NCBI RefSeq assembly: GCF_003201595.1
Contig: NZ_QJJS01000023.1
Span: 1-55,230, forward strand
From: Sphaerotilus hippei
Lineage (GTDB): Bacteria > Pseudomonadota > Gammaproteobacteria > Burkholderiales > Burkholderiaceae_C
Reading direction: 5' to 3'
Length of the DNA: 55,230 bases
Shown: positions 8,576 to 11,364 of the stretch, one piece after another
Layout: the number at the start of each line of letters is the position of its first letter
Numbering within the stretch: position 1 is the first letter of the stretch
Position numbers and translations under genes: made by a program
Notes under the pieces: generated by a model
What the model was told of the DNA's origin: nothing
The model's input: the letters and a program-made list of their open reading frames with translations, nothing else
Databases searched by the model: none

Positions 8576-9160
8576 TCAGGCGCGCTCGAACTTGAACACC
8601 GCGGTGCTGGCCAGCAGGTTCGGCAGGTGGCGCACGACCTGGCCCTCATGCAGCCCGAAGGACTCGAGGATGCGCAGCCCGCACTGGCCGGCCAGCACCT
8701 CGAAGTCCTTGAACGTGCCCACGCGGATGTTGGGCGTGTCGAACCACTGGTAGGGCAGCGCCTTGGTCACCGGCATGCGCCCGCGCATCACGCTCAGGCG
8801 GTTGGGCCAGTGCGCGAAGTTCGGGAAGGCGACGATGCCGATGCGTCCGACCCGGGCGGTCTCGCGCAGCATCGCCTCGGTGTTGCGCAGGTTCTGCAGC
8901 GTATTGAGCTGCAGCACCACGTCGAAGCTGCCGTCCTCGAACAGGCTCAGGCCTTCCTCGAGGTTGCGCTGCAGCACGTTGACGCCGCGCTTGACGCAGT
9001 CGAGCACCTTGGCATCGTCCAGCTCCACGCCGTAGCCGACGCAGCCGCGCTCGCGCGCCAGCAGGGCCAGCAGGCCGCCGCCGCCGCAGCCGAGGTCGAG
9101 CACGCGGCTGCCCGGGGGCACCAGCGAGGCGAACACGTTCATGCTGTCGTGCTGGCTCAT
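8576..9160 (-). CDS. metW: Methionine biosynthesis protein MetW
   Basis: MetW is a small SAM-dependent methyltransferase-like protein found next to MetX, needed for or enhancing homoserine acylation in several proteobacteria. The 194 residues include motif I ([15 protein letters not shown]) at about residue 20 and the MetW hallmarks [12 protein letters not shown] and [16 protein letters not shown]. Its ATG overlaps the TGA of metX (ATGA), showing translational coupling and shared control by the riboswitch upstream of metX. Confidence 0.95.
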
Positions 9161-10290
9161 GCGCCGACCTCCTGGGCGATGCGCTCGAAATAGGCCCGCA
9201 CGACCCCGTGGTAGCGCGGGTCGTCGAGCAGGAAGGCGTCGTGGCCGTGGGGGGCGTCGATCTCGGCGTAGCTCACGTCGCGGCGGTTGTCGACCAGCGC
9301 CTTGACGATCTCGCGCGAGCGCAGCGGCGAGAAGCGCCAGTCGGTGGTGAAGCTGACCACGAGGAAGCCGGCCTGGGCGCGCGCCAGCGCGCGCGACAGG
9401 TCACCGCCGAACGCGCGGGCCGGATCGAAGTAGTCCAGCGCCCGCGTGATCAGCAGGTAGGTGTTGGCGTCGAAGTACTCGCTGAACTTGTCGCCCTGGT
9501 AGCGCAGGTAGCTCTCGATCTGGAACTCGATGTCCTGGGTCGAGTAGGCCAGCTCGGCCGCGCGCAGCTCGCGGCCGAACTTGGCCTCCATCGAGTCGTC
9601 CGACAGGTAGGTGATGTGGCCGATCATGCGGGCCACCCGCAGGCCGCGCTTGGGCAGCACGCCGTGGGCGTAGAAGTGGCCGCCGTGGAAGTCGGGGTCG
9701 GTCACGATGGCGCGCCGTGCCACCTCGTTGAAGGCGATGTTCTGCGCCGACAGGTTGGGCGCACTGGCCACCACCACGGCATGGCGCATGCGGTCGGGAT
9801 ACTGCAGCGTCCACGACAGCGCCTGCATGCCGCCCAGGCTGCCGCCCAGCACGGCCGCGAGCCGGCGGATGCCCAGCCGCTCGAGCAGCCGTGCCTGGGC
9901 GTCGACCCAGTCTTCCACCGTCACGACCGGGAAGTCGGCGCCGTAGGGGCGGCCGGTGTCGGGGTTGTCGTGCATCGGCCCGGTCGAGCCGAAGCACGAG
10001 CCCGGGTTGTTGACGCAGACGACGAAGAAGCGGTCGGTGTCCAGCGGCTTGCCGGGGCCGATCAGGTTGTTCCACCAGCCCTCGCTCTTCGGGTCGTCGG
10101 CGTGCACGCCCGCCACGTGGTGGCTGGCATTCAGCGCGTGGCAGACCAGCACGGCATTGCTGCGGTCGGCGTTGAGCGTGCCGTAGGTTTCGTAGACGAG
10201 GTGGTAGTCCCGCAGTGACGCGCCGCTGCGCAGTGGCAGCGCCTCGTCGAAATGCATCTGCAGGGGAACGACGGTGCCGAGTGACGCCAT
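9157..10290 (-). CDS. metX: Homoserine O-acyltransferase MetX
   Basis: MetX acylates homoserine (acetyl or succinyl donor) in the committed step of methionine synthesis. The 377-residue alpha/beta-hydrolase has the nucleophile elbow [10 protein letters not shown] at about residue 150 and the C-terminal Asp/His of the triad within [13 protein letters not shown]. The oxyanion and substrate region [11 protein letters not shown] is also conserved. Acetyl versus succinyl donor use cannot be decided here. The chosen ATG has no clear Shine-Dalgarno: a T-tract of the leader terminator ends 8 nt before it. A further ATG lies 11 codons inside. Control by SAM is strongly suggested by the leader. Confidence 0.94.
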
Positions 10291-10298
10291 GCTTGCCC

Positions 10299-10340
10299 AA
10301 AAAACAAAAACCGGCTCCACCTGCAGAGGTGAACACCGGT
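10299..10340 (-). terminator. Leader terminator upstream of metX (riboswitch expression platform)
   Basis: On the minus strand ACCGG plus CACCT pair with AGGTG plus CCGGT, followed by TTTTTGTTTTTT, giving a textbook intrinsic terminator placed just before the metX ATG. The 5' arm of this stem can instead pair with the 3' end of the SAM-II aptamer (10354-10358 with 10325-10329, and 10348-10351 with 10334-10337), so terminator and antiterminator are mutually exclusive. Terminator shape is seen directly; regulation is inferred. Confidence 0.8.
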
Positions 10341-10351
10341 CGATTCGGGTG

Positions 10352-10405
10352 CCCCTCTTTAGCGGAATTTCTAAAGCGCCCGCAAGCCGGACCAAATCGG
10401 CGCTG
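10352..10405 (-). promoter_or_regulatory. SAM-II riboswitch aptamer
   Basis: On the minus strand this leader matches the SAM-II (SAM-alpha) consensus. P1 is AGCGCC/GGCGCT (10399-10404 and 10375-10380), enclosing a loop that begins GATTTGG and ends GGCTTGCG. A short A/T-rich linker follows, then the hallmark 3' strand GCTAAAGAGGGG (10352-10363), which folds back as the pseudoknot. It lies about 60 nt before metX, a known SAM-II target gene. The class binds S-adenosylmethionine and turns methionine genes off. It is best known from Alphaproteobacteria. Confidence 0.88.
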
Positions 10406-10521
10406 AAATCGCAGTGTAGCGCGGCTCGAGGGTCCCCGATGCGGGGGGCTTCCCCCCGAGGACCAGGGTGCCCCCGGAGCCTGGGATGGGCCTGGAGAGC
10501 GGGCTGCGGACAATCCGCACG

Positions 10522-11364
10522 ATGCCTTGTCTGTCTGCCTTCTTCTTTCCGGGAGCGCTGGAAGTGTCCGGTCCGCCGTCACGTGAACGTCCGTCGACCG
10601 CACGGGCGGCCGTGTCGCATCGGCTGCGGTCCTGGTGTGCGGCCGCTCGTGGCCTGTGGCGGCGCCGGCGCGGGGCCGGGCCGGAGGTCACCACGCCGGC
10701 GCCGCTCGAGGCGCAGGGCTCGGCGCTGTCTCCCCACGAACTGCTGCGAGATGTCCAGGACGGGCTGGGCGCGCGGCTGAGTCGCCTCGCCGGTGCGGCG
10801 GGCCATGCCGGGCGGCCCGAAGGGGCCCTCGGACGTGATCTGGAGGCCAGCCGGTTCGAGATGCGGGTGCTGGGTCATGCCGCGCAGCGCTCCATGCTGA
10901 CGCTGGACGAGCCGCTCGGCTGGCTGCACGAACAGGTGCAGCAGGCCTTGTGCGATCGTGGCCTGGTGCTGCACTGGCAGGTCGATGAGCGGGTGGCGCA
11001 GCTGGCGCTGCCGGTGCGCGACACGCTGGCCCTGCTGTGGATCGCCCGCGAGGCGCTGGACAACGTGGTCCTGCATGCCCATGGCGCGGTGTCCGCCCGT
11101 TTCGGGCTGGAGCTGACCTGCGGCGAGACCGGCTGCCACCTGCGGCTGAGCGTCGAGGACGACGGCCGCCCGAACGCGGTCATCGGATCGGTGGCGCGTT
11201 TCCATCCGGGGCGTGGCCTGGCCCGGGTGCAGCGTCAGGCCACGGCACTGGGGGCCCAGCTGGTGGTCGGGCCGGAGGCGCAGGGCTGGACGCTGGAGAT
11301 CGGCCTGCCGCTGGAGCCGGCCGATCGTTGCCAGGTTCAGGCGCGTGGGGGCTCGGTCGCCTGA
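10522..11364 (+). CDS. Histidine-kinase-like ATPase protein lacking the phospho-acceptor His
   Basis: The 280-residue product has no obvious signal peptide, although its first 15 residues are hydrophobic. It carries a HisKA_3-type segment, [18 protein letters not shown] (about residues 73-90), and a HATPase_c domain with N-box [19 protein letters not shown] in place of the G1 box, and a final [18 protein letters not shown] ... GLPL. In NarX/UhpB kinases the H-box reads RELHDxLG; here the His position is Gln. It may be a pseudokinase or an ATPase regulator. No response regulator gene is adjacent. The start is uncertain: no good ribosome binding site is seen, and the frame is open 18 codons upstream. 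Its 3' end overlaps the convergent GST gene by 28 bp. Confidence 0.7.

Follow-up and report, generated by a model that had tools for sequence, protein, structure and literature searches.

The window, which is the whole 55,230-nt stretch of contig NZ_QJJS01000023.1 of Sphaerotilus hippei, carries on its minus strand the genes metX and metW, preceded by a leader with a match to the SAM-II (SAM_alpha) riboswitch aptamer and a predicted terminator. The features are listed below in the order of transcription, by window position.

10413 to 10418, minus strand: -10-like hexamer TACACT (from the sequence)
10341 to 10413, minus strand: SAM-II (SAM_alpha, RF00521) aptamer match (42.6 bits; the genome's sole match at E 0.001)
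10399 to 10404, minus strand: P1 5' strand AGCGCC (from the sequence and the RF00521 match; pairs counted over 72 aligned rows)
10375 to 10380, minus strand: P1 3' strand GGCGCT (from the sequence and the RF00521 match; pairs counted over the same 72 rows)
10354 to 10363, minus strand: 3' strand of the P2 pseudoknot, GCTAAAGAGG, also the candidate 5' arm of the antiterminator (from the sequence, folding and pairing over 72 rows)
10325 to 10358, minus strand: predicted antiterminator helix (AGAGGGGCACC / GGTGTTCACCTCT), -11.9 kcal/mol alone (folding; complementarity across relatives)
10309 to 10341, minus strand: predicted terminator hairpin, 14 bp with one bulge, -18.4 kcal/mol (folding)
10299 to 10310, minus strand: T-tract TTTTTGTTTTTT, with one G within (from the sequence)
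9157 to 10290, minus strand: metX, homoserine O-acyltransferase, start codon ATG at 10290 (NF047916 MetX_succinyl, 677.7 bits, cut-off 560)
8576 to 9160, minus strand: metW, overlapping the end of metX (PF07021, 186.2 bits; TIGR02081, 228 bits)

Among the named relatives compared, the window MetX is closest to that of Rubrivivax gelatinosus (80.9%), a similarity that points to Burkholderiales. A misassigned metX start codon was considered and rejected, given that several named relatives align from residue 1-3. We infer that metW is on the same transcript as metX. The RF00521 element lies just upstream of these methionine genes, which bears out the earlier note in naming metX as the target of the leader. 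A divergent open frame occupies 10468-11364 on the plus strand, and its translation resembles, by eye, the ATPase part of a sensor kinase.

RF00521 aligned over its full length with 10413-10341, scoring above its gathering cut-off of 36 with an E-value of 1.4e-7 for the 3-kb stretch searched, and this was the sole match at E 0.001 in the 4.43-Mb genome; a chance match as the source of the score is thereby ruled out. The earlier note had proposed this minus-strand scan as a check on its SAM-II assignment, and the assignment is upheld by the score, by the gene context and by the relatives. All parts of the conserved SAM-II core (GAUUU, UUGC and GCUAAA) are present, with GATTT at 10398-10394 and GCTAAA at 10363-10358; AGAGG lies at 10358-10354, and P1 is a helix of 6 bp (10404-10399 with 10380-10375). 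The P1 arms, the GATTT loop and the 3' strand all lie where they had been placed. In the bound form, strand 10354-10363 is modelled as pairing with TTGC (10385-10382) and CC (10390-10389). This P2 pairing was drawn with the aid of structure 2QWY and is absent from the Rfam model.

The predicted terminator stands between the aptamer and metX. It had been described as perfect, and here only its presence stands, as the stem contains one bulge and G-U pairs, and the T-tract is broken by a G. Likewise, the competing pairings between the 3' strand of the aptamer and the terminator 5' arm do exist in folding of the window (10358-10354 with 10329-10325, and 10351-10348 with 10337-10334), but their extent had been understated: the antiterminator is longer, and with RNA out to 10316 it adds pairs between 10366-10361 and 10321-10316. 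The window therefore holds both an intrinsic terminator between aptamer and gene and an aptamer strand able to form an antiterminator mutually exclusive with that terminator, as in a transcription-attenuating platform. When a growing transcript was folded, the pairing of AGAGG (10358-10354) with CCTCT (10329-10325) had a probability of 0.95-0.98 with RNA out to 10316 and 0.89-0.92 out to 10312, and fell to 0 once the RNA reached 10308, where the terminator takes over. To mimic the aptamer with SAM bound, the P2 strand was kept from pairing; the inner terminator arm then paired with itself with RNA out to 10316, and the terminator formed in the full-length leader. The terminator also won at equilibrium in the full-length leader with the P2 strand unbarred (antiterminator probability 0.01), so the decision of the switch must be kinetic. 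The polymerase still covers roughly twelve bases behind its active site, and an antiterminator could therefore persist while the T-tract is being crossed.

The comparison across relatives drew on 295 distinct leaders, from which 9 with three mismatches were removed to leave 286. Among them are the second members of tandem leaders, as well as records whose titles name alpha- or gammaproteobacteria; of 84 further hits chosen, 80 were fetched, and the leaders L061-L178 are among the matches listed by a scan whose pattern fixes part of P1. By similarity to the window MetX, 127 of the 286 leaders precede metX. Clusters judged by eye from translations add 67 metZ-like, 23 metH-like, 8 metN-like and 4 metK-like targets, and 57 leaders fall outside all of these groups; family models were applied to MetX and MetW of the window and to a handful of small proteins, the other targets being assigned by similarity or by eye. 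A terminator (hairpin at -8 kcal/mol or below) follows 224/286 leaders as against 17/279 control stretches taken 300-560 nt farther downstream, and the remaining 62/286 leaders have none by the criteria used.

Complementarity between the P2 3' strand and the terminator was assessed in silico in the 212 of these 224 leaders whose hairpin starts 5-45 nt past GCTAAA, with the strand written as GCTAAA followed by the bases that come next in each leader (a few mismatched leaders were treated as consensus). Against its own terminator 5' arm and loop, the strand gave a mean duplex energy of -11.67 kcal/mol, compared with -10.00 kcal/mol for permuted partners (0/2000 permutations as low) and -7.91 kcal/mol for shuffled arms. 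The signal persisted when one leader was kept per similarity cluster (n = 175, 153, 108 and 72; 0/5000 permutations as good in each), and for the 72 divergent leaders retained at the last of these thresholds the own-partner duplex had a z of -6.0. In 68/212 leaders, six or more consecutive pairs involve the ten initial bases, GCUAAANNNN, whereas shuffled arms average 5.7; permuted partners match the true ones on these ten bases (65.3 vs 68, n = 212), so that the arms have pairing with them in common, and what is specific to each leader resides in the variable tail. The duplex includes at least three of the ten bases in 194/212. Taken by itself, the window leader does not stand out, its own partner ranking at 0.21 among all arms. 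Overall, the comparison of relatives points to the P2 3' strand as the antiterminator arm for SAM-II.

Pairing in P1 and P2 was counted in an alignment of 72 matches from 70 chosen sources, which was fitted to P1 and in which many rows were chosen by motif. Over both helices, 91.4% of cells are paired and 46 are changed on both sides, compared with 23.3 in shuffles, in these P1-fitted rows. In P1, 96.5% of cells are paired; the outer pair differs at both positions in 27 rows and the inner pairs are nearly invariant. The idea that P1 is frozen in this order for a special reason was considered but is not claimed, because L287-L289 carry a compensated change (GCGCC/GGCGC to GCGTC/GACGC) and the scan pattern mentioned above itself fixes part of P1. 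In P2, the four inner pairs are present and invariant in 72/72 rows and pair 21/59 in 60/72, with weaker pairs at 17/60 (standard in 37/72) and 24/57 (54/72).

A -10-like TAnnnT begins 18-27 nt before GATTT in 202/286 leaders, compared with 17/286 at a control distance of 48-57 nt, so transcripts probably begin at P1. In the window, this would probably put the start around the first P1 base (10406-10404).

These results suggest, with a probability of about 0.88, that a SAM-II riboswitch of the OFF type governs metX-metW by transcription attenuation. Transcripts would start at the first base of P1 or close to it. At low SAM, the free 3' strand GCUAAAGAGGGGCACC would base-pair with the nascent terminator's 5' arm and loop, and the polymerase would clear the T-tract ahead of terminator formation. 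When SAM is plentiful, the aptamer would close the P2 pseudoknot and sequester the 3' strand, so that the terminator hairpin forms and metX is turned off. SAM binding, the kinetic order and the transcription start are what we infer for the window switch; its computed support comprises the aptamer match, the terminator, the exclusive pairings, the leader-specific complementarity and the methionine gene context. Most likely, judging from its sequence, the window RNA senses S-adenosylmethionine and halts transcription early, as a predicted switch. The attenuator logic put forward in the earlier note finds support in the RF00521 score, in the genes downstream and in the leaders of relatives.

Judged by covariance-model scores, SAM-II is widespread in this order. 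A local model built from 30 aptamers, whose E-values are rough, detected it at E 0.001 in 217 of the 300 genomes searched from the order and in 134 of 150 from the family. RF00521 found it at E 0.001 in 137 of the 300 order genomes, and in only 52 of them above its cut-off, which misses most genomes of the order where the local model detects the element. GATTT, TTGC and GCTAAA are invariant in 30/30 aligned copies. The same strict core also occurs, among the matches listed, in records with alpha- or gammaproteobacterial titles (L066, L070, L080, L082, L098, L113 and L125), namely Thalassospira, Bosea, Rhodoplanes, Halomonas and a Legionellales MAG.

The window element is of an already known type that is common in this bacterial group. 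A transcription-attenuating SAM-II had been presented in the earlier note as unusual, a view that gives way to two precedents. Putative terminators after many SAM-II aptamers were already reported in 2005, and the passages describing those leaders agree with the window in the aptamer with P1 and a P2 pseudoknot, the association with methionine genes, the promoter just upstream of P1 and the terminator between P2 and the gene; the copies of the order differ in lying mostly under the Rfam cut-off (Corbino et al., 2005; PMC1273637). In S. meliloti, the SAM-II ahead of metZ has a predicted intrinsic terminator after it, and an RNA of fitting size was seen on a blot in vivo (PMC9373788); that system is alphaproteobacterial, whereas the window element precedes metX-metW. 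The metX SAM-II of structure 2QWY shares the aptamer core, but its P2 strand carries the ribosome-binding site, and a 2024 review describes SAM-II in terms of direct occlusion of the ribosome site (PMC10907184).

Translation enters the interpretation by several routes. As the earlier note had stated, no Shine-Dalgarno sequence stands before the ATG at 10290, and this is usual in relatives. A Shine-Dalgarno-like motif was found in 24/98 metX leaders with a terminator and 1/12 without (random 13-mers, 7%), and in 25/49 metZ-like leaders with a terminator and 2/8 without; such counts vary with the motif set and the choice of start (25/99 vs 24/98). It is possible, if on balance doubtful, that the hairpin acts as a dual attenuator, which terminates transcription and also hinders the ribosome on read-through RNA, an arrangement compatible with transcription attenuation as the main explanation. 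In the 98 metX leaders with a terminator, the median distance from the hairpin's end to the start codon is 19 nt, and just a quarter or so of these leaders have the motif; Barrick and Breaker 2007 also list dual attenuation of transcription and translation as a category. The argument is one from positions, however, and metX leaders with no detected terminator likewise tend to lack the motif.

A stronger version would have the hairpin and U-tract replace the ribosome-binding site in the metX leaders of this order, with read-through mRNA being translated from a Shine-Dalgarno-less start beside a U-rich stretch and with polymerase and ribosome both hindered. If true, one SAM-controlled structure would work at two levels. 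As the motif is scarce also where no terminator was detected, the terminator does not account for its rarity, and we have lowered our estimate for this version accordingly, to the point of considering it unlikely.

Alternatively, SAM-II might act mainly on translation, with SAM hiding a GAGG in the P2 strand that serves as a distant ribosome-loading site and with a constitutive terminator. The window has such a GAGG with the ATG about 60 nt downstream and no Shine-Dalgarno-like motif adjoining the ATG, and a comparable proposal, over a distance of 74 nt, exists for metA of S. meliloti (PMC9373788). GAGG, GGAG or AGGA occurs in or just past the P2 strand in 44/127 metX and 27/67 metZ-like leaders, but these are a minority, and the window form AAAGAGG is found in only 30/127 and 1/67, respectively. 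Leader-specific complementarity between the terminator arm and P2 would moreover be needless for a constitutive terminator, and we consider this alternative decidedly improbable next to transcription attenuation.

The order's element also bears on a regulator described earlier under another name. Passages of Leyn 2014 (PMC4239095) report SAM_alpha only in Rhizobiales and Rhodobacterales, and describe, for 35 betaproteobacterial genomes, a novel RNA element with a pseudoknot and terminator ahead of metXW or metZ, naming the Methylophilales and Nitrosospira lineages for metZ. In our data, the window and the records titled Variovorax, Rhodoferax, Hydrogenophaga, Rubrivivax, Herminiimonas and Bordetella have SAM-II ahead of metX, and Nitrosospira (L074) and Novimethylophilus (L063) have it ahead of a metZ-like gene; metX was downstream in all other named betaproteobacteria checked save L093, where the gene is unassigned, and L122, which has no open frame there. 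The two descriptions share the betaproteobacterial metXW/metZ leaders, the pseudoknot, the terminator that follows and a proposed antiterminator. They differ in that Leyn 2014 treats metXZ as a new element, scored here as SAM-II, and builds the antiterminator from GC-rich regions 3 and 4 rather than from the P2 3' strand. By its RF00521 scores, core, gene positions and published description, the "novel metXZ RNA element" is very probably SAM-II. That metXZ is a separate class merely resembling SAM-II, and perhaps sensing something else, is hardly credible: Leyn 2014 did call it novel and limit SAM_alpha to the two alphaproteobacterial orders named above (PMC4239095), but copies from this order score with RF00521, keep the invariant core and precede metX or a metZ-like gene in the lineages that Leyn 2014 named. 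As metXZ is very likely SAM-II, its ligand is likely known, and an orphan betaproteobacterial regulator is probably removed from the list. A prior statement of this identity was not found in passages of the open-access literature, which is weak evidence of absence since only passages were covered.

Tandem SAM-II-like cores about 110-165 nt apart were seen in L011, L111, L191, L203, L205, L238, L160, L052, L080 and L294, in which a canonical core with a terminator is followed by a variant core with no obvious terminator. Tandem SAM-II is not new, as 44 examples have been published (PMC9481103). The variant core mostly has GATTTAA or GAGTT, together with CTTGCGGG or CTTGCAGG. In L011, L111, L191, L205 and L052, a protein of about 100-118 aa (beginning MFDC or MYDC) starts some 50-70 nt past the variant core; those of L011, L111 and L052 had no Pfam match.

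The family RF02424 (Bp2_287, "Burkholderia sRNA") matches the strand opposite SAM-II leaders at 12/12 fetched loci, 3 of them above the RF02424 cut-off (L287 1501-1673, minus strand; L288-L298; L111 245-389, minus strand). The sequences suggest that this entry is probably an antisense reading of the SAM-II leader. By eye, a metZ-like gene follows the SAM-II leader in L288 and L289.
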